NCBI GenBank assembly: GCA_015179125.1
Contig: WHVA01000071.1
Coordinates: forward strand, 242,357 to 306,356
Length of the DNA: 64,000 nt
DNA from: Gautieria morchelliformis
Lineage: Eukaryota; Basidiomycota; Agaricomycetes; Gomphales; Gomphaceae
Direction: 5' to 3'
In this document: positions 454 to 61,182 of the stretch, one piece after another
How the letters are laid out: each line of letters starts with the position of its first letter
How positions within the stretch are numbered: the first letter of the stretch is position 1
Translations under genes and position numbers: made by a program
Notes under the pieces: model-generated
The model's input: the letters and a program-made list of their open reading frames with translations, nothing else
Told to the model about the DNA's origin: nothing
Databases searched by the model: none

Positions 454-1167
454 TCTCACGAGAACACATTCCCAATTGTAGACACTCGAAATTTCAAAAA
501 AGTAAGACCATAGGTTTGTTCATAAGACACTATTCAACAACTCTATGGTGCTATTTTATTGAAATCAAGCTTATAAAAATTTCTATTACGTGTTTTTATT
601 TATTTATTTCATAATTCAAAAAATGAGATTGCCTGTCCAGGGAACACAAGTTTGATTTTCTGTCCCAGCAATTGTTGCTGCATTACATAAGCAAATGGTG
701 GAGTTTGAATACTTTTTTGTGGGAGATGGTTCCCGAACAAGCAGATTGGTAATCCACAAAAGAATCCGGAGGCAATACCATGCTTGCGTGGAGACAGGTA
801 TGTTCCCTTCTTTGACCCTGATTGAATGCATACATTGTGTGTCTGCTAGTAGATTCTTCAAACTGCACAAAAATTAGTAGAAATAGAAGGGTGCACTTAT
901 AGATTATTATATAAAATTTTGGGAGCATCCTAAATAGACAGATATGATTGATTTGCATTGAGCTCTCTTGGGTTTTAGTGGTTTATTATTCCTGTCCATG
1001 TTTATGTTCGTTGGTTCAACTGTGCACTTTTCAATTTTTTGTCCCAGATCACATTGAATGTGGCAACCTCATTTACTAACCAGTTGCTGAGGTGACATTT
1101 TAGTTAAGCCAATCTTACATTTAAATCATGGAGCAGCTTAGATCAGGCCCCAAAGTAATATACCATA
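454..1167. other. AT-rich spacer without a gene
   Basis: Open frames here are short and unrelated to anything I know. The stretch is AT-rich with homopolymer runs. It ends exactly where the inverted arm begins, with the triplet ATA directly before CACTGG. Confidence 0.4.
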
Positions 1168-1634
1168 CACTGGAGGCATGGCAAAATTTCTCAAGTCAGG
1201 AAACCCCTTGAAACTTCTATGGAAATTCCACGTTTCTTGAGAGTTTCCTAGGATGGGAAATTTAGAGGAAATTTAATGTTTTACAAGGGTTTCCAAAGTT
1301 CAGGAAATTGTATAAAAATTGTAAAAATATGGTCCAGGAAATCGTGAGGAAACTGAGTCCAGAAACTGACAGTTTAACCATGATTTCCTGTCTAAAGAAA
1401 TCATGAGTAAATTCTAAATTTCCTCAGAGTTTTTTGGTACAGGAAAATATTAGGAAATTCTGCAAATCTTGGCAGGAAATCTTGTGAAAATTTTATATTT
1501 CTCTATGATTTCCGGACTCTGGAAATTATAGTAAATATTCAGTTTCTAGGAGGAGGAAATTCACAATATCTCAAAGATTTCCTGAGGATTTCCTGGGTTG
1601 GGGAATTGTCTAGAAATTGGAATAGTGTGTTGAC

Positions 1635-2505
1635 CATGCGCTGGATGGTGCGCTGGTACCCGGCGCTTATGGCGGTTGGTTTGCACAAATATTATCCCGT
1701 GCCCACACCAAAGGGAAAAACTCCCGTTCGCATGGCATTGCATTTTGCGCGCACGCGCAATTCACCGCAAAGTGTTGCTGGTGCTTTCTGGCATAGTCAC
1801 GTGACCTGGCCTCGTCTTAAATGATGGTTTGCTAGCCTTTGAAGGCATGGAATTATATTTTTTTTGGCTAGTATGATGGATGGGTTCTGATCATCATTAT
1901 TTTCAACATTCGAGTCGTCGATCAGTTGTAACTGCGCAGGATGAGTCACCCTTTCCCAGGCTGAGGTGCAGTGAACTGCGGAGGTCATGTGATGCGTCTA
2001 CAACCACCCATGTTGTGTAAGTATTTCCCACGTTGAGTTTGTTCAGACATCTATTTGGCTTTCACCATAACTCAGAGTGGGAAATACTTACACAACATGG
2101 GTGGTTGTAAACGCATCACATGACCTCCGGAGTCCACTGCACCACAGCCTGGGAAAGGGTGACTCATCCTGGGCAGTTACAACCAATCGACGACTTGAAT
2201 GTTGAAAATAATGATGATCAGAATCGTATGTAGGGCGAGAAAATCTACCTAGAATCATTTATAAGGGTCCCATCCATCATACTAGCCAAAATAAAATAAA
2301 ATTCCCTGCCTTGAAAGACTAGCAAATCATGATGTAAGATGAGGGCAGGTCACGTGACTGTGCCAGAAAGCACCAGCGCGCGCGGGAACACTTTGCGGTG
2401 AATTGCATGTGCGCGCAAAATGCAATGCCGCGTGAACGGGAATTTTTCCCTTTGGCGTGGAGTCAGGATAATATTTGTGCACACCGACCACCGTAGGCGC
2501 TGTCA
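1635..2505. repeat. Internal palindrome within the left arm
   Basis: Positions 1635-2030 are the imperfect reverse complement of 2078-2505, separated by about 47 bases around 2055. Shared blocks include the stretch around caccgcaaagtg, the CACGTGAC block and gtgtaagtatttcccac. Because the arm is itself palindromic, single strands could form a stem of about 400 bp. The right-hand arm at 19615-20485 has the same structure in mirror image. Confidence 0.8.
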
Positions 2506-2985
2506 GCGCCACGTGCGCTGGTACTCGGTGCTGTCAGCGCAGGCTTGCGCTGGTACCGGCGCTGTCAGCGCACGCGTGCGCTGGTGCACGTCGCTGTCAG
2601 CGCAGGCTTGCGCTGGTGTCAGCGCTGTCAGCGCAGGCGTGTGCTGGTCCCCGGCGCTGTCAGCGCACGCTTGTGCTGGTGCACGTCGCTGTCAGCGCAG
2701 GCTTGCGCTGGTACCGGCGCTGTCAGCGCAGGCGTGCACTGGTACCCGGCGCTGTCAGCGCAGCGTGCGCTGGTGCACGTCGCTGTCAGCGCAGGCTTGC
2801 GCTGTTACCAGCGCTGTCAGCGCAGGCGTGCGCTGGTACCCGGCGCTGTCAGCGCAGCGTGCGCTGGTGCACGTCGCTGTCAGCGCAGGCTTGCGCTGGT
2901 ACCAGCGCTGTCAGCGCAGGCGTGCGCTGGTACCCGTGCTGGTGCACATCGCTGTCAGCTCAGGCTTGCGCTGGTGCACTGACAG
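2490..2985 (+). repeat. 31-32 bp GC-rich satellite array A
   Basis: About 15 units of a 31-32 base repeat built around CTGTCAGCGCAGGC and TTGCGCTGGTACC. Each unit contains AGCGCA...TGCGCT and often GGTACC, so each can fold into a small hairpin. Mixed unit lengths keep several reading frames open, giving long arginine- and cysteine-rich ORFs that are artefacts. The array ends at 2985, next to the broken 5' side of a DUF3712 gene. Confidence 0.9.
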
Positions 2986-2995
2986 CCTGAATTGA

Positions 2996-5900
2996 ACATC
3001 ACCTTTCAGCCTTGCAATTAATACAGGACGGTGCTGTTCCCGGAACACCTTTGCTCCCAAATCTCTCATTGGTCATGGGCAACAACACAATGGCAGCTAC
3101 AAGTGCCTTCCAGGTGTGCTCTGGAAACTGTTGGCTCGTGCTTTCATCAGCTGACCTGGTTGCTTCCAGCCCAACAACAGTCCGCAGGGTCTGCAGACAC
3201 TCAATGAATTTGTAGGTGGCACAGACCTATTGCTTCAGATCGTGGGATTCAACGGGAGTACGGCGGTTCCTTCCCTGCTTCAAGCCTTTGAGAGTCTCAG
3301 TATCAGCGCCATGCTCCTTGCACTGAACTCTACCCTTCTGCAAAGCGCCGCTCTCACGAGTCCATGTTCATCCTACATGCGATTCTTCCCTGACTTACCC
3401 ATGGATATCAGTTCTTAACACTACTGGGAAGCAGAACAACATGGCTCACCTAAACGTCAACCTCAAGAACCCCTTTGGCACAGGATTGACCATCACGAGC
3501 ATCAATTCAACGGTGACGTCACACGGGCTCAGCCTAGGCACCATCCAGACCTCCACGAACTTCCCTGCGAGCGGAAAATCGACATCTACGTCACCGATGC
3601 TCGACCTGAATATGAACCTTGAGCCTCCAACTATCTTTACCCTTCTCCGCTGTTTAACTGTCCAGGCAGGCCAGAGGACGGATCAAATAGATGTGATCGT
3701 TTCACTGGGAGGGATTCAGTATATTTCTAGCTCAGACGCTGATGGAACCAAGGTCTCGCAAAAGAGGCAGGGGGACAATGCCAACATATTCACGTGGGCT
3801 TCCATCAGTCCCTCATAGTTCCATACTAATGCCACGTCGTGTAGGGGATTCAATTTCCCAAGCTTTGTTGACGCAGCATTCAAATAGCTACAGTCTGACA
3901 TCGTTTTGAGTTCTGCGGTGTCTATTAGTGAGGTTAATCTTGGCCTGTGGGGCAGTCAGCATCTGATGGTTGTCAGGTGACTATCCCACAATGCTGGACT
4001 TCACTCAGCTTGCCGTCCCGGTGGCCACTGATGACAGCCTTAACTTGCTGCTGCCCATTCTGGCGCAACCTATTGTTCAAAAAATTATTACTGGCGCTGT
4101 CTTGGCGTGAGTTTCATATGACCTGCGCTCCGTTTTGGACTAAAACTGGCTCAGGCAGGATCAATACCGTCCTCATCAGCACCCCGCAGGAGACTGCTTT
4201 CGGTAAGTTTGTTTTCAAGCTCGAGACTTGCTTGTCCTGCTGGACCATGTGCGTGACAATGCTTTATACCTATTGCAGGAAACTAACAGATTTGATTAGT
4301 CGATGCCGAGATAGAATTTGGCACGGGACTCACTATCTCCTGGCAGGGACAGCCGTTGGGTAGCATTGCAATGCCGAAGGTTCAAGTTATTGGTGTGTAT
4401 ATTCAATACAGGTATATAACTAAATCATGTTCTGAACATCTCCAAGGTGACATTGGTGCCCAGCTCAATCTTTCTGCGTCATTCCATGTCGCAGATGTTG
4501 GCTGGCTCACGTCTTTCACCCAGGTATAATGGCTATTCATTTCAGGAAATGCACTAGTACTCCTCAACTCACAGGCCCTCTTGACACAAGAAGACTTTGT
4601 GTGGGACATCACAGGAGAGAATTTGTCCGTTTCAGCCCTTGGTGAGTTCGCTTCCCATCTTACCACATCCCACTAATCTCTACTAGGCATCACCGTACTG
4701 GGAATTACCTTACCCTCCAGACTACGGTTACCAATGTAAGTAGTAGCACACTCGATCTGAGAGAGTGCATTGATGTCCCTGTGTTCCTAGCCGTCTCAAG
4801 TGGGCGTGCAGCTGAGCTCTATCGGCTTCAACAACTTCATGGGAGAAACGCTGTTAGGGCCTGCAGCATCTAGCAGTGGTTTTACCCTCGCCCCCCAATG
4901 TCTGTGTATACCGTTGCCCGGAGATCGTCGTGTGCTAATATACATTCATAGTCATAGCTACTTTCAACCTACCTTTAGTGGGCCATTTAATCCACCAGGA
5001 TTCAGCTTCTGGATTGGCCACAGGTGTGTGATGCATGTCATTGTACAACAATATCTTTGAACCAAAGGCACATTATTTAGTCTCACAGGTGTTCACCGGC
5101 TTCATCCATGGCAAATCAACTGTTGTCACCGTCGTGGGGAATTCCACTGGTCCAAGCGATGTACGTGCTTCGCCGTTGTTTTATTCCCAATGCTTATGTC
5201 GATTTGTGATTTGCGACTTACAGGTATCTTGGCTGAACAGTGCAATCAAGAGCTTACAAGTGTCCACAGTGTTGCCTTCTCAAGGACCCCTGCAGGCCAT
5301 CAAGTCAATTACCCTTGAACAACTCGAGCTAGACTTCACACCTGGCACTGCATTCAGCCCTTAAATGAGCTCCAACGCAGCAACCGCCGCCTTCCAGATT
5401 CCGTTTGCATTCCCTATCGATATTGTTGCACTTGAGCAGAACATTATGGCGACCTCGCAAGGTCAATCATTTGCTGAGCTTGTTATTCCCAAGGGTCCCA
5501 GCCAGACAGACGTGAACACACGTGTTATCCACCTGACATTCAGTGATGTTCCTTTTGCAGTCTTCAGTGATAAATTTGCAGTCTTCGAGCAATTTTTGAC
5601 GCAAACCACCATATCTTCTTCGGAAACATTCGAATTATCGGGGGCGGCTAATACTGACGCAAGTACAGCCATTGGTACTCTATCGGTATGTCACCCCTTC
5701 ATTATTCAGCCACACTATTTGATGCTGATCTTGCTTAGCTCACCGGCATCAATTTCAATGTCTCCACCACAATCGCTGGTCTACAAGGGCTGAACACTAA
5801 ACCAGCTGTAGTAACAAACCTTGATGTGAACCATGGTTTCTCCGACTTCCCTCTTATCAAGGTCACAACAACACTCACAAATCCTAGGTCAGCATGTTGA

Positions 5901-6100
5901 CATACCCCTCATTGCCTTTTGGGCTAAATAATCACCTGTTCCCTTAGCAATCTGACCATTTCCATGGGAGATGTCGCTTTCACCTTGATGTTCGAGTATG
6001 TATGACTTCCATCCTTACCATGCCATACTAGCTCAACTCCATAACAGAAAAGTCTGGTTGCTGAAGTGAATGGGCAAGTCAGCCACGTTTCCCGTTGAGA
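2996..6100 (+). pseudogene. DUF3712-family gene, 5'-truncated and decaying
   Basis: Many short exons joined by GT..AG introns encode the repeated beta-rich DUF3712/LEA-like domains of large secreted or membrane-anchored fungal proteins whose function is unknown. Recognisable blocks, in order: LVMGNNTMAATSAFQ (near 3075); NEFVGGTDLLLQIVGFNGS (near 3200); NLKNPFGTGLTITSINSTV (near 3460); LNLLLPILAQPIVQKI (near 4040); GTGLTISWQGQPLGSIAMP (near 4325); the block containing PSQVGVQLSSIGFNNF (near 4795); and MSSNAATAAFQIPFAFPID (near 5365). The upstream exons are missing because the satellite array abuts at 2985. There is an in-frame stop plus frame shift near 3880-3950, and a segment expected before PSQVGVQL is missing. 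Toward 6000-6100 the match fades and is replaced by an inverted piece of a relative. The family is clear; the non-functional state is inferred from the missing 5' end and the internal breaks. Confidence 0.75.
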
Positions 6101-7320
6101 CACCACTGTTTGTCATTGCTGTTGGGACGTTCAACTACATGAGGAGTGGTCAGCAGTAGATACAAAATTGCGGGCCGAATGCATGAGTGCAAACATACCG
6201 CTGCAGTGTCAGCTCCATTGAATTTGATGATAATATCTTTGCTCGCTTGCACTACTTGAGGAGAGAATCCAGATGGATTTTGGAAGGTTGCCAAAGTTGT
6301 TTTGGAGCTTGTCAGCGGGTTGAAGTCTTCGCTTTGTTGGGTCAAATCAAGTTCCAGGTCTTCGATTGTGATCGAGTCTATAATCTAGCGACACGTTGGC
6401 GATAAGTGGGAGTAGGTGCACGAAAATAGATCTATTTGTTGGGTGCATTTATGCTCCTGCACCAAAATCAAGCATAATATATCCAATTTGTTGTGTGGTT
6501 TCTCAATTTCTTCTCATATTGTTCTTGTATCATGCATCCATTTCTCTGGTTATTTTCGAAATTTTCCACTCACTCACTATTTCTCCATTTCATCTTGTTA
6601 TTCCTACTTTCACAAACGGCTGCACCCAGCGGAGTCTGAAACGACTTCGATGCGCGAGCTCTTGGGCGCTAAAGGGCCGGGTAGTAGTACATGCGCAGTG
6701 AAACATATTTCCCCCTCTCTCAGTGACAACTAAATTCACTGAGAGAGGCAAGTAAATTAGTCTAGTGTTCTTTTGATTTATTGACCTAGAAATCCTCTGT
6801 AGTGAATTGATTTCTAGGTAGTGTATAATATATTTACAGAGTGACAACTAAATTCACTGAGAGAGTGAATTGATTTCTAGTCTATTCTTTGGAACAACAA
6901 GTCCATACCTACTGCCTATAATTCCTGTCTACTACACTATTAGCTTACCTTGAATACTTGACCAGGTAAGGTAACATCCAAAGTCAGTGTCTTGAACGCT
7001 GTGCTCAGCCAAGACACCGTTTGACCCTGACTGCTAGGATCAACTGTATCACCCAGGACCTTGAGTGTTTGGTTCTTTCCCACTAGGAAGTTAGAGAGGA
7101 GGACACCGATGACATTGAGATCGTCGCCGCTCTTCAGAACAATGCAGTGATTAAGGTGTTCTGTAGTTGTTGCCCCAGCAGCGAGGAATAAATTGGTCCC
7201 ACTCAGAGCTAAATCAGACGAGTTAGAAAGCAGGCTCAACAAAGGTAATTTCTGTGTCCAGAGGCCCTGTGCCAGTAAGTAGACCATGAAGGGACAAATC
7301 GAAGCCTTCATCAGAAATCT
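6079..7320 (-). pseudogene. Inverted DUF3712 gene fragment split by a solo LTR
   Basis: Read on the minus strand, 7311-6940 encodes a DUF3712 segment including SNSSDLALSGTNLFLAAGAT, LKSGDDLNVIGVLLSNFLVG and WLSTAFKTLTLDVTLPGQ. It continues at 6345-6079 with NPLTSSKTTLATFQNPSGF and KDIIIKFNGADTA. In family members these blocks are adjacent; here a Copia-type solo LTR separates them. Orientation is opposite to the flanking DUF3712 pieces at 2996-6100 and 7536-7875, so a segment has been inverted or a relative inserted backwards. There is no complete gene: start and C-terminal parts are absent. Confidence 0.7.
6437..6899 (-). mobile_element. Solo LTR of the Ty1/Copia family seen at 56424-61671
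   Basis: The left end TGTTGGGTGCATTTATGCTC is the reverse complement of the end of the intact Copia LTRs, and the similarity runs through the GC-rich block with GGGCGCTAAAGGGCCGGG and the CTCTCAGTGA hairpin. No internal coding region is present, so it is a solo LTR left by recombination. The right boundary is approximate because the last 60 bases differ from the intact LTR. It is visibly older than the intact element. Confidence 0.75.
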
Positions 7321-7371
7321 TTCTATGAAGCGGGATGAATAATTGCAATCGGCATCAAATGGAAACAGTGT

Positions 7372-7535
7372 CGGTCAGCGCACCGTGCGCTGGCTGCTGG
7401 CGTTGACAGCATACGGTCAGCGCACGGTCAGTGCACAGGGCGTTGGCGGCTGGCACTATCAGTGTGCGGTCAGTGCACAGTGGACTGGCGGCTGGTGCTG
7501 ACAGCGCACGGTGCACTGACGGCTGGCGCTGTCAG
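7372..7535 (+). repeat. Degenerate GC-rich repeat related to the satellite
   Basis: An irregular run of CGGTCAGCGCAC, GTGCGCTGG and GCTGGCGCTGTCAGG-like motifs. It uses the satellite vocabulary but lacks a fixed period. It sits exactly between the inverted DUF3712 fragment and the next forward fragment, so it marks a rearrangement junction. Confidence 0.6.
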
Positions 7536-7875
7536 GAGAGATTGTCAAAGGTGCTCACATTTCAAGGCTTTCAACGGCTTGCCTGGTGTCACTATCAGCA
7601 ATTTCAAGTTGCCCAGTGATGACCCTGCTGGTGGCATCACCAACTCAACAGATAGTATGATTCCTTCGCCCGCGTAAGTGACTCGCTAAATTTTTATTCG
7701 TTCTACTTGCCGATTTATTATGCCAGGCAACTAGGTATCCAGCTCAGCACCGTCTTGTTCTATTCATTCTGCAACAATGTACTAGTGGGTCGTAGGTATG
7801 ACTTATGCCACATTTTTGCTTTCTAACTCGTCTGATTTAGCTCTGAGTGGGACCAATTTATTCCTCGCTGCTGGA
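7536..7875 (+). pseudogene. DUF3712 gene fragment ending at a satellite array
   Basis: Forward-strand exons read GFNGLPGVTISNFKLPSDDP, then (after an intron with donor near 7674) LGIQLSTVLFYS, then SSDLALSGTNLFLAAG at 7827-7875, where the satellite begins mid-exon. The last 58 bases (7817-7874) are identical in inverse orientation to 7175-7232, so the same exon occurs twice, facing opposite ways, on either side of the junction repeat. The segment resembles the block missing from the copy at 2996-6100, but both contain the following PxQxGxQL motif, so they come from different paralogues. Confidence 0.7.
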
Positions 7876-8425
7876 GTACCAGCGCAAGCGTGCGCTGACA
7901 GCGCCGGGTACCAGCGCACGCCTGGGCTGACAGCGCAGAGTACCAGCGCACGCCTGTGCTGACAGCGCCGGGTACCAGCAAATGCCTGCGCTGACAGCGC
8001 CGGGTACCAGCGCATGCCTGCGCTGACAGCACCGGGACCAGCGCAAGCCTGCGCTGACAGCGACATGCACCAGCGCATGCCTGCGCTGACAGCGCCGGGT
8101 ATCAGCGCATGCCTGCGTTGACAGCGACGTGCACCAGCGCACGCTGCACTGACAGCGGCGGTACCAGCGCAAGAGTGCGCTGACTGTGACGTGCAACAGC
8201 GCACGCTGCGCTGACAGTGGCGGTACCAGCGCACGCCTGCGCTGACAGCGCCGAGTACCAGTGCACGCCTGCGCTGACAGCGCCGGGTACCAGCACACGC
8301 CTGCAATGACAGCGCTGGTACCAGCGCAAGCCTGTGCTGGCAGCGACGTGCACCAGCGCACGCCTGCGCTGACAACGCCAGTACCAGTGCAAGCCTGTGC
8401 TGCCAGTGACGTGCATGTGGACTCC
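7876..8425 (-). repeat. 31-32 bp satellite array B
   Basis: About 17 units of the satellite, in the reverse orientation to array A. It interrupts a DUF3712 exon on its left and abuts the coding-like body of a gag-only LTR element on its right. Long open frames on both strands here (up to 276 codons) come from the repeat. Confidence 0.9.
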
Positions 8426-10213
8426 AGCTCCAGCTCAAGTTCGCCCACGCAGCCTCAAAAAGGCCACGCCATGACCTGGCCACAGACCCAGTGGCCGGGC
8501 CCTCATCATCTTGCGCAACGGCACCCTTGCCAGTGCGTGCAGCATCAGGGCTAGTGTCCCGATTATCAGCTCCCACCCCGACGACAACGACAACAGAGGG
8601 GCAGAGCGCGCCATCCAACGCAGCGTACGGCATCCCAGAAGGATGGGAGTCTGCCTCCTCCGTCTGGAAGGCATATGACCTGGACCGAGCTCAGTGTCTG
8701 GCTGAGCAGCCAAAACAGAAGCCCAAGAAATTGTGCGGCACCCCCAACACCGTCAATAGTCTGGCCATTGCGAGGGAAAGCGTGATCAGCGCATACCTGG
8801 CAGTGTCACCGTCGCACACAATCAATGACCCTCCCCTACAATGGCAGGTAGCACTGGTCTAAGCCCAGTACATCGGGCCTCACGTGGACCTGCTGCCACC
8901 GGCGGGCACAGTTCACCCTCCCTACCTGGGGAGGAAGTGATCATACCACTCGGAGACCTGCTGGCCTCCGAGACGGGCCTCCTACCCCAACCGGTAGGAA
9001 AGGCGCAACAGGGTTGTACTAAATGGTACGACGTCTGCCCGCTCAACGACCCACGCTTCCTTTAGCTCCTAGCGCATGCAAAAGACACGCCACAACTTGC
9101 GCCCATGCACGAGATGATCGGCATGTTCAAGCGCATCGAGCGCGAGCAGCGTGCTTGCAATCCCAAAAGGGATTGTCTTGTGATAGCGAACAGTACCCCG
9201 CACAACATCACCGCCATACTAAGGGGTTGGATACACAACCCCAAAGGAATCCCATCTGCCATCCATGACAACGCGGATGGAACCTTCAACCTAGACGACA
9301 TGGACGTCTGGATGTGGTTGAAGGCACTCCCACCCGAGTTAAAGGGGTCACGTCACCTCTCAAGTTGAGACTCCTCAACTTTTTCGGCTCGACCGGCCAA
9401 TGGTCAAGCCTCATCGTTGCCAGGGAATGCCTGACAATGCAGAGCACCAGCCTGCGGCTATCCATCATGGGTCCATATCCCGTGGGAGGCCAAGCTGGCC
9501 CCAACATTCTGCTCGCTGAGATCGCGCGATGGCTGGCTCACTATGCGGGTGTCACTCATGAATGAGCAGCACGCATTGAACATTACGTTCAACGCAGCCT
9601 CACCGATGTGGCATTCAGTGCCGCCACTCGGAAGGGCCAACAAAAGGTCCTTGAGACCAGCCATGTGAGGGCCACGGTGCCACCACCGCTCACCCACGCT
9701 CAGCTCGATCAAGAGCTGGCGCACTTCCGGCCTTCTCCCCAGGCTGAGGACCCAGCCGTCGAGGCCATGCTCCACAAGGACACTGCCCTCATCAACCAAG
9801 CGGAAAACCCCACCAGTGGTGAGGCAGAGCCCCCTCACCCAACCACCCCCGTGGATGTGGAGGTGCCTCTGGAGGAGTCGCATGCTCCACCAGCCCCATA
9901 CGATGACGATGTCATTGTATCGGAATCACTAGAGGACACCATCATGGATGACCTCTATGAGTCCTAGGCGGTGCCCTATAGTTGTCTATAGAGGGGGAGG
10001 GTGTAAATGACCTATGTATCTACATGTACACTAGTTATTACATAACCCCAGTGGGCCCCTTAGGGACCCACTGTATAGTTTATGCGTGGGAACTGGTCAG
10101 CGGTTCCCATTGCATCTTACCCTTATACTGTCACTATGTAGTTCAGAATACCAGTCCTTGGTCAAGTTCCGTTGTGCCCTTGTGATACAAGGCATAATAT
10201 CGACATCTTTACA
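8426..10213 (+). mobile_element. Gag-only (TR-GAG/LARD-like) LTR element relic with 3' LTR
   Basis: A GC-rich, formerly coding body (8426-9967) is followed by a purine tract (agagggggagggtg, near 9990) and an LTR-like segment at 10003-10213 that begins TGTAAATGACC and ends CTTTACA. That LTR is recognisably homologous to the minus-strand LTR at 39470-39693 (shared GACCCACTGTATAGTT, GTCACTA and CCTTGTGA blocks). The body shows no reverse transcriptase or integrase and ends in an acidic tail. It is broken in several places and the 5' end is lost at the satellite. I do not recognise the body protein family. Old to intermediate age. Confidence 0.5.
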
Positions 10214-10650
10214 ATTATAGGGTAGCGTACAGGGCAGCTCACAGGATAGCGTACCACATAGGGGGTAGTGTAAAGGGTAGTGCACAGGGTGGCACACAGG
10301 GTAGTGTATGGGGTAGTGCACATGGTAGTGTACAGGGTAGTGCATAGGGTAGCGTACAGGGTAGCATACAGAGTAGCTCACAGGGTAGCGTACCGCATTG
10401 CACACAGGGTAGTGTATGGTGTAGCAAACAAGGTAGTGTACAGGGTGTACGGTATTGTATGGGGTAGTACACAGGGTAGTGTACAGGGTAGTGTACCAGG
10501 TAGCATATGGGGTAGCCCACAGGGTACCTTACAGGGTTGCGTACAGGGTTGCTTACAGGATAGCATACAGGGTAGAGCACAGGGTAGTGGACTTCTTAAC
10601 ATACAGGGTAGCATCCATGGTATTGGACTGGGTGGTGCAAAGCACCGAGG
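10214..10650 (+). repeat. 12-bp minisatellite (gggtagtgtaca)n
   Basis: Roughly 35 units of a 12-base repeat with consensus gggtagYgYaca, degenerate toward both ends and losing strict phase after about 10440. As the period is a multiple of three it stays open in several frames and reads as a YRVA/HRVV-type tetrapeptide repeat, which is an artefact. It lies between an LTR end and the Gypsy relic. Confidence 0.9.
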
Positions 10651-10689
10651 AGGTGTGGGCACCAAATGCCACAGAGGAGTATAGACTGC

Positions 10690-12765
10690 ACAGGAGCATC
10701 GGACGTTGCGGAATGACGACAGAACATCATTCCAAGCACGTATGCTCGATCAGCTGCCCCATAGAAGAGCATCGGAAGATGGTGGGGGGTGGCATCCAAT
10801 TGCCTTCTTCTTCTCTAAAAGTCTTAGTCTGGTCAAGTGGAACTATGAGATCCATGACAAGGAAATGCTGGCAATCATCCAAGCGCTGGAGGAGTGGTGA
10901 CACTTCCTTGAGGGGCCTCTATGCCCGTTTGAGATCTGGACAGACCACAAGAACCTTGAGTACTTCTGCACGTCTAAGAAGTTGAACCGATGACAAGCAT
11001 GGTGGTCCCTACACCTGTCCCTGTTTGACTTCATGCTCCACGACCAGCCCGGCCACACCATGGGCAAGCCCGATGCCCTATCCCGCTGCGCAGATCATGG
11101 AAGCAGAAGCGGTGACAATGCTGATATGACATTACTCCGCCCAAGTCTCTTCACAATCCGCGCCATCGAAGGAGTAACTGCAGTTGGGGCGGAAGCGGAA
11201 AAGCTCCGGGACATCCAGAGGCAGTACCAGAATGGAGAGAAGGAGGAATCGGTGGTGAAGGCGGTGGAGGAACTGCGGAAAGGGCACTCACGGTCTGTAC
11301 GGGCAGCAGAGGGGTCAGAACCTGATGGGCTGCTCCACTTCAGAGGCAATGTCTATGTTCCAGGTGGCGTGGACCTCCGCCACCACAACATGTCCCAACA
11401 CCATGACACCCGGGTCCCTGGGCATGCTGGCAGGTGGAAGATGCTAGAGTTAGTGGCTCAGAACTACTGGTGGCCTCAGATGGCACACTACATTGGACAG
11501 TACGTGAAGATGTGCAACCTTTGTCTCCAGACCAAAGCACAGTGACATCCGCCTGTCGGAGAGCTCGTTCCACTCCCAATTCCAGAATCCCGCTGGGAAA
11601 CCATCAGTGTCAACTTCATCGTTGAACTCCCAGAGTCTCATGGCTACGATGCAATTATGAATGTCGTGGACTCGGTAAGCAAGGTGTCCTACTTCATTCC
11701 GACACACACGATGATCACATCCCTTGGAGCGGCCTGCCTGTTCCTTTCACATGTCTGGAAGTTGCATGGGCTCCTGAAGCAAGTCATTTCCGACTGAGGT
11801 CCACAGTTTGTCGCGGAACTGACTCGGGAGCTCTACCGCCTGCTCGGCATGATGCTGGCTGCCACCACAGCATACCATCCACAGGGTACGGACAGACGGA
11901 ACAGGTCAATCAGGAGCTGGAGCAATATCTCCGCCTCTTTGTCAATGAGAGGCAGGATGACTGGGACGAGTTACTTCCACTTGCGGAATTCTAATACAAC
12001 AACCATGTACATTCGGCCACACAACAGACTCCCTTCATGCTCGACTCTGGATGACACCCACGGATGGGCTTCGAACCACACCAGGCAGAGTCCCGACTCG
12101 AGACAGTCAATGAGTTCCAAGACCGCATGGACTGCACCCTTTCGGAAGCCAAGTCTGCCCTTGCAAAGGCCAAGAATGACATGGCAAGGTACTACAACCA
12201 ACGGCAGATTCCTGCCCCAGAGTACCAAGGTGGAGACAAGGTGTATCTAGATGCAAGTGACATCTGCACCACACGCCCTTCGCAGAAGCTTCCCAACTGC
12301 TACCTTGGGCCCTTCACAGTGATGCAGAGGGTTGGATGGAATGCGTACCGCCTCCGACTTCCAAACTCCATGTCCCGCCTACAACCCGTCTTCAACGTAG
12401 TGAAGTTGCTCCCTGCACTTGAGGACCCAATTCCAGGGTGGAAGGCTCGTCCACCACCTCCACCAGAAATTGTAGATAGGGAAGAGCACTATGTGGTGGA
12501 ACGGATCCTGGACAGCCGGTTTGTGCGAGGACAACTCCAATTCCTCGTGAAATGGGAAGGGTGTGGGTATGAGGAGGATTTGTGGGTCCCGGAGCAAGAT
12601 GTGTCCGCTCTGGACAAACTCCACGAGTTCTATAGGACACACCCTGGTGCCCCTCGCTGAATCCGCTTGCTGGCCTTTCAATCCCTCATGTCCCATGCTT
12701 CGAGGACGCAGCATGTTAGAGGGGGGGTGATGTCAGGGGACACCCTGTTTTCAATTTCCAGTTAG
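10690..12765 (+). mobile_element. Ty3/Gypsy chromovirus relic (RNase H, integrase, chromodomain, start of 3' LTR)
   Basis: Parts in order: RNase H-like region ([16 protein letters not shown], near 10850); integrase zinc-binding region and core (11330-11900); integrase C-terminus; and a chromodomain (YVVERILDSRFVRGQ, near 12490) ending at 12660. A purine tract then leads into TGTCAGGGGACACCCTG (12731), the same LTR start as at 61933. Everything upstream of RNase H is missing and the LTR is cut off after about 35 bases. It is broken, with many breaks, and old. Same family as the minus-strand relic at 52790-61932. Confidence 0.85.
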
Positions 12766-13510
12766 GAGGGTGTTTGGAATTACTATAATATCAGATGTTT
12801 ACTAATAAAAGTGATGTTCCCATAAAACTCCATCTTTAAATAATGATATCTTTTCTGAAACTATTCCATCATTAAAAGGCAATTCTGGGAAATAGTTCTC
12901 CATGTTACATGCTAAACAATTAAAGGTCATTTAATAGAATCCATTGTATATGATTTCCTTCTGTTTATAGATATCTGTTAATACTTTTGTTGGTACTCCA
13001 TTTTTTAAAAACTAAATTGCAGTTCTTTCCATGTAAAATATGTAAGATATTATTGGAGATTTTTCATGCTACAACCTTCCTAATTAAGCAAACCCGCCCA
13101 GGTATTCTTAGTATGTTGAATCAAATAGAAATATATTCTAGTTAACTCACCCATCCCGAGGTAACACATATGTATTTAAAGGTGTCAATGGCATACACAT
13201 GTATGAAATGTACTATCTAAGGGAGTCTACCTTTTAAAATTCTTAAAGTTCTAACTCACCACAGTGCTTCATAATCTATTCATCTCTTAAAAGATGCTTT
13301 GTTTCATGATGTACAAATAACATTTAAACCATCATCTGAATCAAGAAAGTCAGCATGAAATATCATCGTCAAGTGAGCCAGCTTACCAGATGACATGGGC
13401 CTATCCCCTAGGGAAACCCACCAGTAAAATGGGATGTTTTGTGATTTGCGCCATTGTTACATATTGAGATTTCCACTAAGTCAGAACTGGAAAGGACAGC
13501 GGCTTCAACT
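12766..13510. other. AT-rich stretch without a gene
   Basis: About 740 bases of AT-rich sequence replace the rest of the expected Gypsy LTR. I see no coding frame, terminal repeat or known motif. It may be an unrecognised insertion into that LTR. Confidence 0.4.
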
Positions 13511-14150
13511 TGTAGGTTGCACCCCCAATAAAATATCATCCTAAGTATTTCGGAAATGAGTTGGAAGTCGGAATGTACTGAACGAGAGGTTGGTCGGAAC
13601 TTGAGTCGGAACTGAGGTGGAAGGTGGAAGACGGAAGGCGGCGAGACTGAGGTCGTGCTAGACTCGCTGTGCTAAGAACAGGAGATGGAGCGAAGGAAAT
13701 CAAGCATCGAAGGTGATTATCTGATTGCAGAATAAGAGACATACATGACAGGCTTTTTATACAAAGAGCTGAGACAACAGGTAATGATATGGTACTAAGC
13801 AAATTCCGGGGGAAGCGGAAGTCGAGTAGACAATGCGTGGGAACTAACTAATTGGGAACAATGGGACTACAAGGGGGGTTCAGGGTAAGGTAGAACAATG
13901 GCACAGAACAAGGGGGTCGGGAAAACATATCTGACAACGAACTACAAGGGTGACCGGACATATGCTCTTGATGAACGATGAAGCGGGTCCGGTGGGTCCG
14001 AGTAATAGAGTCGAAAGAACAAGGGAATAGAACAATTGGCGGAATGTCGGAAATATCGGAGGGGCGGAAAGTGTAGCGGAACTGAAGGTCGGAAGTCGGA
14101 AATGAACAGTCGTAACAGCCATGCAGCAAGCATCTGAGCTTGTCGTGAAC
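13511..14150 (-). mobile_element. Possible LTR relic, minus strand
   Basis: On the minus strand this region is rich in TTCCGACTTCCG-type motifs like those in the Gypsy LTR at 61960-62150. It has a TATA-like box (tataaaa, near 13758) followed by about 240 bases of pyrimidine-rich leader. These are LTR-like features, but no paired copy lies in the window and the ends are not defined. Confidence 0.3.
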
Positions 14151-14805
14151 GCATCATAGAACTATTTTCAACTAGATGGACACTGGTGATGGCGACCCTT
14201 GAGTTAGGCCACATAGATAAGGTCTTAGTTGAGTAAAGAGGGAAAAAAAAGCGTCAATGACTGCGCCCGAGCTAGCCATTCTCCGCATCGTCCTGTCACT
14301 CACTGCTCTACATCCTCGCCTGGGAAAATGAAGATGATGGGGGGGGGGGGACTCTGAGCCTCAGCGGCCTTGCCTAGATAAGGAGATTGTTAGAACGATC
14401 CTATGCTATCTTCTCATCAAGGAACAAATGAGTCTATTATAATTATCGAGTCGCATAGTCCTCCTGTCAGTGAGTTTGACATCACTTAGTCTATCATACA
14501 TTCAGCCCTATCATCATTGAGCTAAAGATTAGCCATATAGGAGTGTACTGCATCATTATTGACATCATATTTTGACCCTAACTCCTAGTACCATCATATT
14601 CCCCTGTTATTCACTCCTATGTCCCACTGCTTAAATACTTGGACTATACACAGAAATAAAATACAATTTTACGCCCTTTTTCCTTGCCAGCTTCGAGTCA
14701 TAAGCTCTCCTGGATTATTCTCATTTCTTCATCACCTTCAGCTGTAGAACCTCGAGTTATAGGCTCAAAGTCAAATTCCATTACTTATAAAAGATACCAA
14801 CACTT
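14151..14805. other. Spacer without a recognised gene
   Basis: Mixed sequence with an 11-base G run near 14340 and no convincing coding frame. The last 160 bases contain an AATAAA-like motif (near 14656), possibly the end of an unrecognised repeat. Confidence 0.35.
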
Positions 14806-15132
14806 GACACCAGCGCACGCGTGCGCTGACTGCGACGTGCACCAGCACGCGCGTGCGCTGACTGCGATGTGCACCAGCGCGCGCATGCGCTGACAGCGCC
14901 GGTACCAGCGTAAGCCTGCGCGGACAGTGATGTGCACCAGCTCACGCTGCGCTGACAGCGCCGGGTACCAGCGCACGCCTGCGCTGACAGCGCTGGTACC
15001 AGCGCAAGCCTGCGCTGACAGCGACGTGCACCAGCGCACGCTGGGATGACAGCGCCGGGTGCCAGCGACCGCGTGTGCTGGCAGCGCCGGTACCAGCGCA
15101 CGCGTGCGCTGACAGCGCCGGGTACCAGCGCA
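14806..15132 (-). repeat. Satellite array C, first half
   Basis: About ten units of the 31-32 bp satellite in reverse orientation. The array is cut at 15132 by a hAT element and resumes at 16050, with CCAGCGCA duplicated on both sides. Confidence 0.9.
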
Positions 15133-16049
15133 TAGTGTTTTCCCGGCCCGGCTTGGGCTCAAAAGCCCCGGTCACGGCTCGGCCTGAGACGGCTCAGGCT
15201 TCACAAAACCCAGGCCAGACTTTTTTTTACGGCTCAGGCCTGGCTCCGGCTTGGCTCGGCTTTGGCCCCGGCTCGCTGGTGGCCGCAGGGTGAAAAACAC
15301 CCTTTTCGTCCAGCTTCGACTGCGCACGGCCGGGATGAGAGCTGTGAGGGTTGGGCTGAGGTGAGTTAGAACTCACCGATTGCACGGAGTAGGATCGCCG
15401 CTCGGGTGGGCGGGATCCTGCTCTGCGGCTGCTCTCATCTTGGTTTCGCGCAGGTTGCGCACTCTGATTCATTATTATCCTGGTGTTTTCTATAGTATTC
15501 ATGTCTAATTATTGGCTAATACTTTGTCCGTGTCTACTTCTCTGCTACGGGGCTGCGTGCTTCATCCCCCTTGGCACGTCCGTGATTCATCCTTGGGTTC
15601 TGATTGGTGTGGGCGGGTGGGTAAAGAAAAAACTTAAGGAGTGGTGTTCGAGTGAAAGATGGTAGGCGGGGTTTCTTGAGCGAGTGGGTGGTGCGGAGAG
15701 GAAGAAAAACGGTGGGATTAGGCGCTGGCTGCTGCGCTCAGCTGGACGCTTGGTGCCGACGTCTGCCGGCACCTCTCTCATTCCCTCCTTTGAACTTTAA
15801 GCGCCTTATCTAAGTTTCCCACGCGTGGTGCCGGCGCGCTGTGCCTGGGCCGTCGAGCCGCCTAGGGCGGCTTCACCCATACCATCTAGGTGCTCAAGAG
15901 CCGCGGCTTCACAGCTCGGCCCAGGCTTGTCAAATCCTGAGCCGGGCTTTTTGGGACGGCCTGGAGACAGCTACAGCGCGGCTCGGCTCAGCCTGTAAGG
16001 GCTCGGCTCCGGCTTTGTCGCGGCCTAAGCCAGGCCTGGGAAAACACTA
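15133..16049. mobile_element. Non-autonomous hAT element (917 bp) in the satellite
   Basis: The ends are TAGTGTTTTCCC and GGGAAAACACTA, a perfect 12-bp TIR that extends imperfectly through GGCCYGGCTTRGG. The 8-bp target duplication CCAGCGCA (15125-15132 and 16050-16057) is perfect and is part of the satellite unit. Subterminal regions are full of GGCTCGGCTC and CAGGCC-type motifs, as expected for hAT transposase binding. No transposase is encoded; the open frames are short. The 8-bp TSD and short TIR are diagnostic of the hAT superfamily. Confidence 0.9.
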
Positions 16050-16476
16050 CCAGCGCACGCGTGCGCTGACAGCGCCGGTACCAGCGCAAGCGTGCGCTGA
16101 CAGCGCCGAGTACCAGCGCACGCCTGCGCTGACAGCGCCGGTACCAGCGCAAGCCTGCACGGACAGTGACGTGCACCAGCCCATGCTGCGCTGACAGTGC
16201 CGGGTGCCAGCGACCGCGTGCGCTGACAGCGCCGGTACCAGTGCAAGCATGCACTGACAGCGCCGGGTACCAGCACACGCCTGCGCTGACAGCGCCAAGT
16301 ACCAGCGCACGCCTGCGCTGACAGCGCCGGGTACCAGCGCACGCCTGCACAGACAGCGCCGGAACCAGCGCAAGCCTGCGCTGACAGCGACGTGCACCAG
16401 CGCACGCTGCGCTGACAGCACCGGGTGCCAGCGACCGTGTGCGCTGACAGCGCCGGCACCAGCGCAAGCGTGTACC
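16050..16476 (-). repeat. Satellite array C, second half
   Basis: About 13 more units continuing the array interrupted by the hAT element. It is cut at about 16476 by a LINE and continues after the LINE poly-A at about 19281. Confidence 0.9.
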
Positions 16477-19280
16477 CAACGTCGTTCTCAAAGAGTCAGT
16501 TGAACTACTAGCTGGACACCTGCTATGGATATACAGAGCCGCCTTCACACTACAAACCTATAGCGACAGGTGGAAGTTGTGGACAATGGTGGTACTCCGG
16601 AAACTGGGGAAGGCCAGATATAACACCCCTAAGTCCCATCGCCCTATTGCACTATACAACACCATGGGTAAACTACTGACAGCAATAATAACAGAGGACA
16701 TAGTATACATGACTGAAAGGTACCACCTGCTTCCAGCCAACCACTTCGGGGGCAGGCCCGGCAGAACAACCACAGACTCACTCCACCTGGTGGTCAACAA
16801 GATCAAGGGCGCATGGAGATGCAAGAAGGTCGCTGTCATGCTATTCTTGGACATAGAAGGTGCCTTCCCTCACGCCGTCACGGATCGCCTCCTACACAAT
16901 ATGTGGAAACGACGGGTACCGGAAGAGTACGTACTTTTCACTGAAAGGATGCTAACAGACCGACGCACACGGCTGAGGTTTGACGGCTACCTATCGGACT
17001 GGGTACCCATCGACAATGGGATAGGTCAAGGAGACCCCCTCTCCATGATACTATACCTATTCTACAACGCAGACCTCGTTGACATAGCCTCAGCGAAGGG
17101 ACAGGCCGCGGTAGCTTTCTGTCATGACGCGTTTATTTCCCATACTCAGATGCTCTGTTCTCCTATTTCTCACTCCACCTTCGTGTTCGTTCCGATCGCC
17201 CTTGCCGTGTTCAGCAACCGATCCTCGCTGTTCACGCCATTTACCATGGCCAGTCATCGAAGCACAATCAACGTCCCTGAACTAACTTAACAGTCATCGC
17301 TGGGCCTATCACCTCTGCTCAACCCTCTTTCAATGGTGTTCCTATGATCGGACTGTCATGACTTGTGTATTTCCTGGACCTTGTTATCCCCATTTCCCCT
17401 TTCGCCACTCCTCCCCTTGGTCGCTTGGCTTTGCCCTCCACTTCAACCACTTCTCCCCTATGTCATTCCCGTTCGCCCTTCCTCGCATTTCTCCGAACCG
17501 CTATTCACTGCTCGCGCATTTTGCCAGCAGGCACGCCATCAAATACGATCAATACCATTTACCCGGCACAATGGTTCATCACTAACCCCATCATCTTCTT
17601 AATCCAACCCCTTTGGGTGTTCATATGGCCAAAGTGTGTTCGCAGGATGTCCCTTCCGTAGGTCATGTGGGATCAACCCAGTAGACGAAGAGTCCGTGCA
17701 GGGTAGGATGTATGCGGGTCCCAAGACATGGTTTTGTACATGGATGCCTTCGCCACCTTTACTCTCCATCGTTTCATGTTCGCACTCTTCCCTCACTCTA
17801 TTGTATGTTTATTCCATCTACTTAGTATCATCACTGCACACCCCTATCCAACCCTGACTCGCGACAGCCTCTTTCCTATTCGCTGATGCCTTACGAGCAT
17901 TCTATATAAGTAGTTTACATTTGCATGTATATTCTCCAGTTCAATTATCATATGTTGTCCATCTTGTGCAAACTTGACCTTGCTGTGATCATCATCTTAA
18001 GCCTTCTCTTGGAGATTTCTATCTTCGACCAGCAGAGGACTTAGGCATCACTGGTGAGTTCTCATACTTCATCTTTGTTACCTTAGCCTTCGAACTATTT
18101 TCTGTGCTGTTGGCGAAGGGATTGTCGCTACTTAGACAGCCCTTCCGTGACACCTTGCACGTTAGATCGTCAAGTGCCACGGGCCATTTCGCTACGACTG
18201 TAGATAGGGCGAGCGCCGTTCAGGCAACCCTCTTATCTTGTGAACATTCATTGGTTCACGAATTCGCCAAATGGCATACTTATTCGCACAAGCTATTTGG
18301 GCATTCGCTGTGTTCACTAATACACGATACTAACGCCTAAAAACCAATCTTGACACTTTCGTGGATGACACCAACCTCTACACGGAGGGCGACAGCTACA
18401 TGGAGGCATACGACAGTCTGAGCAAGATGCTACTCAAACCTGGAGGAGTGAAAGAGTGGACAGAGTACGAAAATCCCAGTCCCCGCTATGCCCAGCCTGC
18501 ATTGGGGCGGAAGAGACCATCCACCACTACCTCTTCGACTGCAGGGCACACGAACATGCGAGAGTAACGCTGAGAAGGAGACTGGGACGAAGGTCGAAAT
18601 CACTGAAGGAGCTCTTAGGATCACGCAAGGCTATGAAAGCGACACTGGCATATGTAGCAGCGACAAAGAGGCTACAAGCAACATTCGGTGACGTACAACC
18701 CTCTCAGGCTTAAAAAAGAATTCAAGAATCACTCTGTTAGACCATATGAGGCCCGTACACAAGCAAATCCGACTATGGGACCATTTCACCCATCGATATG
18801 AACACACCATGCCCACTCCACTCCCCTATGACACACAACGCTCGCGCATCGACATAGGCAAGACTCGGCTCAGCAAGGCGGGAACAGACGGCCACACCAC
18901 CAGCGGTACAAGAACAACACCGGACGACCCATCCTCTCACCTACACCTGTGACGCTCTCCTTTGTCGTCCAGCCCGCTTCGGTGGCCGAGCACTTACCAA
19001 GCCTGACCATCTCACACGACATGAACGAACCGAGGAGAGAAACTACCTGATCAGCGGCATGGGGCGACAAACACTCCCAAGGGGGTTGGGCCGGCAGGGG
19101 GAAGGACCTGTCATCGGTGCAGTCGCCAATGCAGTACACAGGAAGCCGGGAGTCCCAGGGAGAGAGGGGAAAGCCCTGCGCTTACCATAGGTAGAGACAG
19201 TACAACGACCACCATAGGCTCGACGCCTGCGGTTGAATAAAATGATGAGAAAAAAAAAAAAGAAAAAAAAAAAGAAAAAG
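16477..19280 (+). mobile_element. 5'-truncated LINE (non-LTR retrotransposon) with poly-A tail
   Basis: The coding part is a jockey/Tad-like reverse transcriptase: YNTPKSHRPIALYNTMGKLL, HFGGRPGRTTTDSL, VAVMLFLDIEGAFPHAV (catalytic Asp in LDIEGAF), then DNGIGQGDPLSMILYLFYNA and, after an insertion, FVDDTNLYTEGDSY with the FVDD catalytic box. The C-terminal part has a CPACxGAEETIHHYLFDC zinc-knuckle-like motif (near 18495), typical of LINE ORF2 ends. Endonuclease and ORF1 are missing. The 3' end has AATAAA near 19235 and an A-rich tail at 19248-19280. The copy lies inside the satellite with an approximate 8-bp duplication AAG[C/T]GTGT. It is inactive: truncated, frame-shifted after 18420 and interrupted at 17120. 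Confidence 0.85.
17120..18355 (+). mobile_element. Long solo LTR (1236 bp) nested in the LINE
   Basis: It begins TGTCATGACGCG and ends CCAATCTTGACA, giving TG..CA ends, and is flanked by a perfect 5-bp duplication CTTTC (17115-17119 and 18356-18360) that splits the LINE reverse transcriptase just before FVDD. No coding region for gag or pol is present. The right 250 bases match, in reverse, the piece starting at 22159. The sequence is pyrimidine-rich. The family cannot be assigned from the LTR alone. Confidence 0.8.
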
Positions 19281-20952
19281 TGTGTGCTGACAGTGACGTG
19301 CACCAGGGCACGCTGGGCTGACTGCGACATGCACCAGCGCATGCGTGCGCTGACAGTGCCGGGTACCAGCGCAAGCATGCGCTGACAGCGCCTGGGACCA
19401 GCGCACGCCTGCGCTGACAGCGCCGGTACCAGCGCAAGCCTGCACTGACAGTGACGTGCACCAGCGCACGCTGCGCTGACAGCGCCGGGTACCAGCACAC
19501 GCCTGCGCTGACAGCGACGTGCACCAGGGCACGTGTGCGCTGACAGCGCCGGTACCAGTGCCGGTACCAGCGCAAGCCTGTGCTGACAGTGCTGAGTACC
19601 AGTGCACGCGGCGCTGACAGCGCCTACGGTGGTCGGTGTGCACAAATATTATCCTGACTCCACGCCAAAGGGAAAAATTCCCGTTCGCACAGCATTTCAT
19701 TTTGCGTGCACGCGCAATTCACCGCAAAGTGTTCCCGTGCGCGCTGGTGCTTTCTGGCACAGTCACGTGACCTGCCCTCATCTTACATCATGATTTTCTA
19801 GTCTTTGAAGGCAGAGAATTTTATTTTATTTTGGCTAGTATGATGGATGGGACCCTTATAAATGATCCTAGGTAGATTTTCTCGCCCTACATAAGATTCT
19901 GATCATCATTATTTTCAACATTCGAGTCGTCGATTGGTTGTAACTGCCCAGGATGAGTCACCCTTTCCCAGGCTGTGGTGCAGTGGACTCCGGAGGTCAT
20001 GTGATGCGTCTACAACCACCCATGTTGTGTAAGTATTTCCCACTCTGAGTTACGGTGAAAGCCAAATAGATGTCTGAACAAACTCAACGTGGGAAATACT
20101 TACACAACATGGGTGGTTGTAGACGCATCACATGACCTCCGCAGTTCACTGCACCTCAGCCTGGGAAAGGGTGACTCATCCTGCGCAGTTACAACTGATC
20201 GACGACTCGAATGTTGAAAATAATGATGATCAGAACCCATCCATCATACTAGCCAAAAAAAATATAATTCCATGCCTTCAAAGGCTAGCAAACCATCATT
20301 TAAGACGAGGCCAGGTCACGTGACTATGCCAGAAAGCACCAGCAACACTTTGCGGTGAATTGCGCGTGCGCGCAAAATGCAATGCCATGCGAACGGGAGT
20401 TTTTCCCTTTGGTGTGGGCACGGGATAATATTTGTGCAAACCGACCGCCATAAGTGCCGGGTACCAGCGCACCATCCAGCGCATGGTCAACACACTATTC
20501 CAATTTCTAGACAATTCCCCAACCCAGGAAATCCTCAGGAAATCTTTGAGATATTGTGAATTTCCTCCTCCTAGAAACTGAATATTTACTATAATTTCCA
20601 GAGTCCGGAAATCATAGAGAAATATAAAATTTTCACAAGATTTCCTGCCAAGATTTGCAGAATTTCCTAATATTTTCCTGTACCAAAAAACTCTGAGGAA
20701 ATTTAGAATTTACTCATGATTTCTTTAGACAGGAAATCATGGTTAAACTGTCAGTTTCTGGACTCAGTTTCCTCACGATTTCCTGGACCATATTTTTACA
20801 ATTTTTATACAATTTCCTGAACTTTGGAAACCCTTGTAAAACATTAAATTTCCTCTAAATTTCCCATCCTAGGAAACTCTCAAGAAACGTGGAATTTCCA
20901 TAGAAGTTTCAAGGGGTTTCCTGACTTGAGAAATTTTGCCATGCCTCCAGTG
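19281..20952 (-). repeat. Right arm of the long inverted repeat pair, with satellite array D
   Basis: This is the mirror copy of 1168-2985. Satellite units at 19281-19635 lead into the unique palindrome (19615-20485), the degenerate AGGAAAT-type block, and the outer end CCTCCAGTG at 20952, directly followed by ATA. Array D is the continuation of array C across the LINE. One 63-codon open stretch (20132-20323) is identical to its counterpart at 1797-1988, which shows how little the arms have diverged. Confidence 0.8.
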
Positions 20953-21995
20953 ATAGCTACCAGGATGTTCTACTGAAATTTGAAACTTCCATCCTGTGTA
21001 TTTTTGCCACATAAACCCTAACCCTAAGATGACTAATGGGTGCTAAGAGGGTGTATGGTCTATACTGCCACTATCTTAGTCACAGCTGGGGTCCTTCACC
21101 AGCAAGGGATCCCATGCCAGTGTTTCCTGGCAGGCAACAGGCTCCATTGCCGCCAATGCACCCAGACCATGACTATGTGCCACTAGTCTCTCCTAGTCAA
21201 TGTTCTTAAATCTGGCTACTAGTGCCCCTCATATGCTTGCCCCTCACACCGCTGTGTGGCATTGAAGCACGGTCCCTGCTTATCTCCTGTCAGTGACAGA
21301 GTGCGTGAGTTTCAAATAGAATAAAGATGTGGCCTTTAACTCGAGGCCAAGTTCGGTGTGTGAGAGAGGAAAGTAACTCAGAGCTCAACTTAATTACTTG
21401 AAGTTGGGATAGATGTGAAAAGATTTGTTATTATATTTTACTCGTACATGGTCAGCTATTTATGTCAACTTGGATAGGGGTCTTGATACAAGGTAGTGAA
21501 CAACAGAGTGGTAGGAGTATGTATACGGTAGGTGCATGCGTACTGCCTGCACTGTATACCCACACTTCAACTTGCCTGCTTGGTTTCACCTAGACATAAG
21601 GCAGAAAGGTTTGTACTTGTTTGGTGGCTCAATGGATGAGGCGGAGAGGTAGGTTGAATTGAATAGGAATGAAAGACGCAACTCGAGTGTGATGGAGGAA
21701 AGGTGTCATGAGATAGGGTCGGCAGGATGTTATCAATGAGATTTGGATTGGTCCAGCTGTATGGCTACTCGTGTACGCGTAGATTGTGTACCTCGACTCA
21801 ACTCGTTGTATATACACTATCTCGGCTCGGCTTGATGACTTGGTATACGATCCAGCACGTGCGCTAGATGGCCTCAACTCATAACTCGTGTGTACGCATG
21901 TATGTGCGCCTCGGTGAACCCAGAGGCTTGAGTGGTCAGATTCAGATCATACAAAAATACTGTCCATAGCTGATATTGCAACAGTCAGAGCCCTC
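20953..21995. other. Stretch without a recognised gene
   Basis: No convincing coding frame. It contains the dispersed repeat at 21037-21082, preceded by aaaccctaaccctaag, which looks like two telomere units but is far too short to count. The rest (21300-21900) is mixed sequence of unknown origin. Confidence 0.4.
21037..21082 (-). repeat. Inverted partner of the 409-453 repeat
   Basis: The reverse complement reads ctaagatagtggcagtatag and continues into the same sequence as 409-453 with about four differences. Confidence 0.6.
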
Positions 21996-61176: not shown

Positions 61177-61182
61177 AACCCT

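Follow-up and report, generated by a model that had tools for sequence, protein, structure and literature searches.

Positions 1168-20952 of the window, the 64,000-nucleotide stretch of DNA that we analysed (C793:242357-306356), are very probably a giant, apparently non-autonomous transposon of the CACTA/EnSpm type, in which blocks of cargo are separated by satellite arrays. This 19.8-kb element inserted as a single unit. It is best read as a combination of CACTA-type ends, Foldback-like arms and satellite-bounded cargo in one element. As this element suggests, nearly 20 kb of cargo, made up of retroelement and gene-like pieces, can be carried between two CACTA-type ends that enclose no recognisable transposase. 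Searches covered the 122-Mb assembly (1113 contigs), and copies are named here by their contig labels (C239a, C415, etc.), with C793 for the window copy. Among the titles and abstract openings listed, with most subscription papers outside the coverage, no such family was described.

The initial annotation had described 1168-2985 and 19281-20952 as inverted copies of each other, with CACT-type ends directly flanked by ATA. Our alignments agree on both points. The segments 1168-2564 and 19556-20952 align as inverted copies over 1397 nt at 98% with no gap. Further inward, up to 2985 on the left and from 19281 on the right, the arms consist of satellite arrays with opposing polarity, and the pairing here is in shorter pieces. 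The outer 475 bp are identical in the left and right arms. The termini read CACTGGAGG and CCTCCAGTG, with CACTG and not CACTA at the very end, and ATA abuts both of them. The parts of the element are listed in Table 1.

Table 1. Parts of the element in the window copy, with their occurrence in other copies.
Feature	Position	Strand	Remarks
ATA flank, left	1165-1167		single ATA in 6/6 aligned empty sites
T, outer end: CACTGGAGG terminus and subterminal region with 14 AGGAAA/TTTCCT (9 and 5)	1168-1640	+	
P, near-palindromic arm segment	1641-2495	+	inner palindrome 1885-2039 / 2069-2223
S1, 31-32-bp satellite array	2496-2941	+	+ polarity
Block A, gene-like cargo	2979-7875	+	all or part in C415, C264, C1010, C1026
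TG...CA insert, 500 bp	6437-6936	+	5-bp duplication CTATT (by eye); absent from C415, C1026
S2, satellite array	7876-8406	-	- polarity
Block B, chromodomain Gypsy fragment	8407-14807	+	minisatellite 10263-10589; also in C239a, C604
Portion of block B	8600-10200		present in C224
TG...CA insert, 663 bp	13455-14117	+	5-bp duplication GCCAT (duplication and exact 3' base judged by eye); absent from C239a, C604
S3, satellite array	14809-15132	-	- polarity
Block C, S3-S4 interval	15133-16047	+	unseen in the other 15 elements compared (C1026 sequence partial)
S4, satellite array	16048-16466	-	- polarity
Block D, LINE reverse-transcriptase piece and ~990-bp dispersed repeat (17120-18110)	16473-19250	+	parts in C415, C239a
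S5, satellite array	19286-19558	-	- polarity
P, copy in right arm	19625-20479	-	
T, outer end on right	20480-20952	-	
Target-site duplication ATA, right copy	20953-20955		

The ends of the element recur across the genome. The 28-base end with at most three mismatches (hereafter the strict end) occurs 94 times on 69 contigs (46 forward, 48 reverse), and the reversed control gave 0; a relaxed pattern, listed in part, occurs 223 times, again with 0 in the control. Convergent strict ends within 26 kb of each other form 17 pairs, with lengths of 0.7-25.6 kb. Paired copies reading CACTGG..CCAGTG with 3-bp duplications had been named beforehand as supporting evidence, and such copies were found: the 3-bp flanks match in 9 of the 17 pairs (C1 AAC, C143 TCA, C239a TCT, C239b AAG, C311 CTA, C382 TTA, C415 ATG, C793 ATA, C1026 TCT), four of which are giants of 16.9-20.6 kb. 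The flanks do not match in the remaining eight pairs (C36, C226, C289, C510, C604, C264, C1010, C1102). If the pairs were independent, nine matches would have a binomial P of 1.2e-12 (chance 1/64) or 2.4e-9 (chance 1/27). Not every one of the 17 pairs is independent, since the flanks of C264 and of C1102 are inverted copies, C1102 has a flank in common with C311, and C1010 combines flanks from C264 and C415. These three copies may be rearranged, either by true inverted duplication or by misassembly.

Some members of the family are small. C143 (L041) has only short ends in common with the window element; it is a small CACT-ended element, apparently with a nested hAT-like element that has CAGTG ends (by eye). 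The target site of C382 (L045) is a near-palindrome centred on TTA.

Insertion of the window element as one unit is seen at its empty sites. A query of 168 bases from the left flank, one ATA and 124 bases from the right flank was searched against the same genome. With 40 of 66 candidates scored, 41 matches were listed. Of these, 38 cross the junction, in part with a gap of a few bases; the other three are the two halves of the window itself and a short match to one side. Six of the 38 sites were fetched, and all six read ...CCATAGCTACC... with one ATA. The initial annotation had proposed one composite giant element, to be checked by an empty site with one ATA in another strain. The empty sites support the composite element: they join base 1167 to base 20956, and they come from paralogous copies of a repeat within this genome instead of from another strain. 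The junction is intact in these repeat copies, with a single ATA, so the element went into a dispersed repeat that was already there.

The test was repeated on the giants C239a (16.9 kb), C415 (18.7 kb) and C1026 (40 of 1037 candidates scored). For C239a, 38 of the 40 listed matches cross the junction. Many of these are three bases longer than the query, and two such sites, when aligned, are free of gaps in 81 junction bases; the three sites aligned out of the 38 have one TCT each. For C415, two of the 40 listed matches cross the junction, and both aligned sites have one ATG and show a one-G difference from the element within a G run. The triplet is single in all 11 aligned empty sites of the three giants (window, C239a, C415). 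No empty site of C1026 was found among its 40 scored matches. The 4.9-kb C239b has a related empty site within the window, at ~9275-9412, with one gap and many mismatches.

These empty sites bear on two other explanations of the arms. The arms could have inserted separately, in opposite orientations, on either side of ordinary DNA, as might be suggested by the 60 of the 94 strict ends that lack a strict partner at up to 26 kb; single arms are possible elsewhere in the genome. For the window copy, this is ruled out by empty sites in which the outer flanks meet at a single ATA, and it is also contradicted by the identical outer parts of the two arms and by interior blocks common to other copies, leaving it a negligible probability. 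Alternatively, the structure could be an inverted segmental duplication, or an assembly artefact caused by foldback sequences. The inverted-copy flanks at C264 and C1102 and the composite flanks of C1010 are in line with such an origin. In contrast, the flanks of the window copy do not match each other and together rebuild an intact repeat, as do those of C239a and C415, and we consider a duplication or artefact highly unlikely here.

Interior blocks of the element recur in other copies. At ~93-96%, C415 has A and D, C239a has B and D, C604 has B, and parts of A are present in C264, C1010 and C1026. C415 and C239a keep their blocks in the order and relative orientation seen in the window, and satellite lies at the seams. 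Exceptions are C604, where a D-like piece (85-88%, mostly dispersed repeat) is reversed inside B, and C1026, where parts of block A are present twice. Since A (gene-like), B (Gypsy) and D (LINE) are common to other copies, they are most simply seen as inherited cargo, and these shared blocks would have moved together with the ends. The window copy also contains two LTR-like inserts with 5-bp duplications, each missing from two other copies compared. The earlier view of the interior as cargo plus later insertions therefore needs to be divided: A, B and D belong to the inherited cargo, and 6437-6936 and 13455-14117 are the parts absent from the compared copies.

A different history is that a small arm-only element similar to C382 (1.8 kb) entered ATA first, and that the cargo was nested in place in an element that never moved as a whole. 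Arm-only copies do exist (C382, C510), the window copy contains two LTR-like inserts that each have a duplication of their own, and the empty sites are compatible with this history too. However, independent nesting would not yield blocks A, B and D at ~93-96% elsewhere, with satellite borders and polarity unchanged. Conversion between copies could do so, and part of the block sharing could indeed stem from gene conversion. On balance, we regard nesting in place as improbable and favour a giant transposon that carries its cargo between its ends.

The origin of the cargo differs among blocks. Block A matches 16 contigs. On 11 of these it lies inward of a strict end, at up to 13 kb from it (by eye), on C547 and C570 it lies within 30 kb of a strict end, and C388, C275 and C646 are without one. 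A Pack-CACTA element would contain a captured host gene fragment with a donor in the host. The open reading frame of block A has 15 matches, all at ≥89%, and none is a diverged donor. Four block A frames gave 0 Pfam families at E up to 1; block A may resemble fungal DUF3712. Variable sites are spread evenly over the three codon positions in three block A frames (7/8/9, 8/5/7 and 5/9/8). Given frames with no codon-position bias and no diverged donor, the cargo gene looks passive, and a functional cargo gene is unsupported. A block B probe found four close copies (93-100%, window included) and 36 copies at 80-89% (40 of 2055 candidates scored); these many distant copies indicate that block B derives from a dispersed Gypsy family. 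The repeat at 17120-18110 in block D has at least ~40 copies at 85-96% (40 of 4133 candidates scored).

Other copies contain open frames of their own. In C415, the element contains a Gypsy-type frame (L055:3769-6834, minus strand) that is 1022 codons long and includes reverse transcriptase, RNase H and integrase zinc domains. In C1026, Pfam identified a PIF1-like helicase frame inside the element (L057:6368-7939, minus strand), which we take to be of Helitron origin. C1102, an element with irregular flanks, has a FAD_binding_8 frame (L048:3207-3740, minus strand; E 1.4e-9) that is perhaps a captured piece of a host gene.

One satellite of 31-32 bp separates all blocks of the window element, in + polarity in S1 and in - polarity in S2 to S5. 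In the other copies read, the blocks retain the polarity of their adjoining arrays, where polarity was scored by majority in the mixed arrays of C264, C1010 and C1026. The satellite has 222 matches. Those listed fall on 26 contigs, of which 23 contain a strict end, compared to 69 of the 1113 contigs overall; the contigs with no strict end among the matches listed are C646, C803 and C1052. In C382 and several other copies, the junction between T and P contains short satellite-like pieces, which may be the seed of the satellite.

We infer that satellite-mediated loss of blocks is a route by which the element is edited. Arrays of the same polarity would recombine, so that blocks are lost or joined, resulting in A plus D, B plus D, A alone or B alone. 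For instance, recombination between S2 and S4 would remove B and C and give the order A-S-D of C415, while recombination between S3 and S4 would give the order B-S-D of C239a. More tentatively, and with less than even confidence, we suggest that the element may act as a modular cargo vehicle, in which a junction-seeded satellite provides a recombination seam of fixed polarity and cassettes are lost, joined or exchanged while the CACTA-type ends remain unharmed. The related copies within one genome offer a direct test set for satellite-bounded block exchange.

Our searches for a transposase covered the Transposase_21 and Plavaka profiles. Transposase_21 had 79 matches genome-wide, none of them inside the 17 pairs (83/83 candidates scored). 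The Plavaka profile had 135 matches in the genome (123 of 277 candidates scored), none of them inside the 17 pairs. It matched in 0 of 14 control genomes, and its matches here point to a fungus, probably a basidiomycete, as the source of the DNA. With no match to either profile inside the pairs, the element looks non-autonomous. Looking inward over ~20 kb, a Transposase_21 match was noted by eye for three strict ends (C186, C224, C152), which is not significantly more than the ~1.2 expected (P 0.12), and the stretch in C186 is interrupted by stops in all three frames shown. Presumably a helper acts in trans. The CACTG termini, together with the AGGAAA-rich subterminal region, would be the recognition sites of its transposase, which would mobilise everything between two convergent ends and leave a 3-bp duplication upon insertion. 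The cargo would then be a chain of blocks, consisting of a gene-like piece, a Gypsy fragment, block C and a LINE piece, with arrays of one satellite between them.

It is the ends alone that place the element in the CACTA type. All 17 convergent pairs read CACTG..CAGTG, in agreement with CAC..GTG, although the pairs were picked by this end pattern. Features of CACTA/EnSpm elements found here are inverted termini, a 3-bp duplication (9/17 pairs) and subterminal repeats in both orientations (a motif chosen post hoc); a CMC-type transposase of its own was not detected inside the 17 pairs with the Transposase_21 and Plavaka profiles. We assume that a Starship, with its tyrosine recombinase captain, is unlikely, as the element has inverted ends and a target duplication. 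In the part of the source available, fungal EnSpm families are described with CAC..GTG ends and 3-bp duplications, and Plavaka families with other ends (PMC12730594). Plavaka membership was rejected, as the ends CACTG..CAGTG differ from the TGT..ACA or CATCA..TGATG given there.

The initial annotation had also pointed to Foldback-like elements, and a Foldback/Mutator-type or P-type (Galileo-like) element would indeed have long arms that consist of a unique part and tandem repeats. The likeness in arms stands, as does the variable structure that the window element has in common with Tetris and Galileo, Drosophila Foldback elements with long inverted arms and internal tandem repeats; for Galileo, the accessible text reports tandem repeats in one copy, in D. 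willistoni (PMC4079207, PMC4168063). Membership does not stand. Tetris and Galileo are assigned to other superfamilies, and the 3-bp duplication of the window element contrasts with the 8-10 bp of Tetris and the 7-8 bp of Galileo in these excerpted sources (PMC4079207, PMC4168063). A Foldback, Tetris-like assignment was rejected on the duplication length, and a Galileo-like origin has very little probability. The resemblance is purely structural, and the CACTA/EnSpm type remains our preferred assignment.

Subterminal repeats in both orientations are stated to be a feature of CACTA elements in the available part of PMC8978399. The outer 473 bp of the window element contain AGGAAA/TTTCCT 14 times (9 on one strand, 5 on the other), whereas 1000 dinucleotide shuffles average 1.2 and never exceed 5, a comparison in which the motif was chosen after inspection. 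The adjoining P segment contains 0. When the best of any k-mer was used as control, the observed counts for k=7 (10) and k=8 (6) were within the range of the shuffles (up to 11 and up to 8, respectively), and k=9 was the only length at which the observed count was higher than in any of the 300 shuffles (5 versus 4).

Similarity between arms gave a mixed signal. The P segments of an element's own two arms are 97.9% similar in the window and 99.5% in C415, against at most 95.3% for arms at other loci, when C1010_R is left out (it equals C415_R, with a flank in common). For T, own partners are strictly closest in only two of the 13 pairs (window and C239b), four pairs are ties, and a closer arm lies elsewhere in seven (C226, C382, C510, C1010, C239a, C604, C415); the arms of C1010 are near-duplicates of those of C264 and C415. 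Between the window and five other copies, T is 97.2-99.5% similar, which is above the similarity of the interior. Since P favours homogenisation of the arms (window, C415) and T is mostly against it, arm homogenisation is not established, and we do not claim it.

Several known elements resemble the window element in part. CNIRT6, a CACTA element of the basidiomycete Cryptococcus neoformans, likewise ends in CACTG and has 3-bp duplications that vary in sequence; it differs in being described as encoding its own transposase, and satellite arms and cargo blocks are unseen in the portion of that report available (PMC12810828). The 20.5-kb soybean CACTA element Tgmt* is similar in size, has the same 3-bp duplication ATA and has subterminal repeats in two orientations. 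However, as far as the source extends, the inverted repeats of Tgmt* are 13 bp long and it contains a transposase gene, whereas the window element has arms of ~1.4-1.8 kb and neither transposase profile inside (PMC2613891). Jozin, a Chenopodium CACTA element with captured satellite DNA, also combines gene fragments with a satellite array; in the available text, its array is near the 3' end, whereas the window satellite is found in both arms and between cargo blocks (PMC8978399). Giant size is shared with the enlarged EnSpm families (16-20 kb) of the red alga Chondrus crispus, for which 4-5 ORFs are described and satellite-bounded cargo is unmentioned in the citing passage (cited in PMC6431247). 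The window element joins three topics that are usually separate: giant transposons, Foldback-like arms and the birth of satellites.

Elsewhere in the window, the minus strand at 56926-61191 contains an open frame of 1421 codons, free of stops, that is Copia gag-pol-like as judged by eye.
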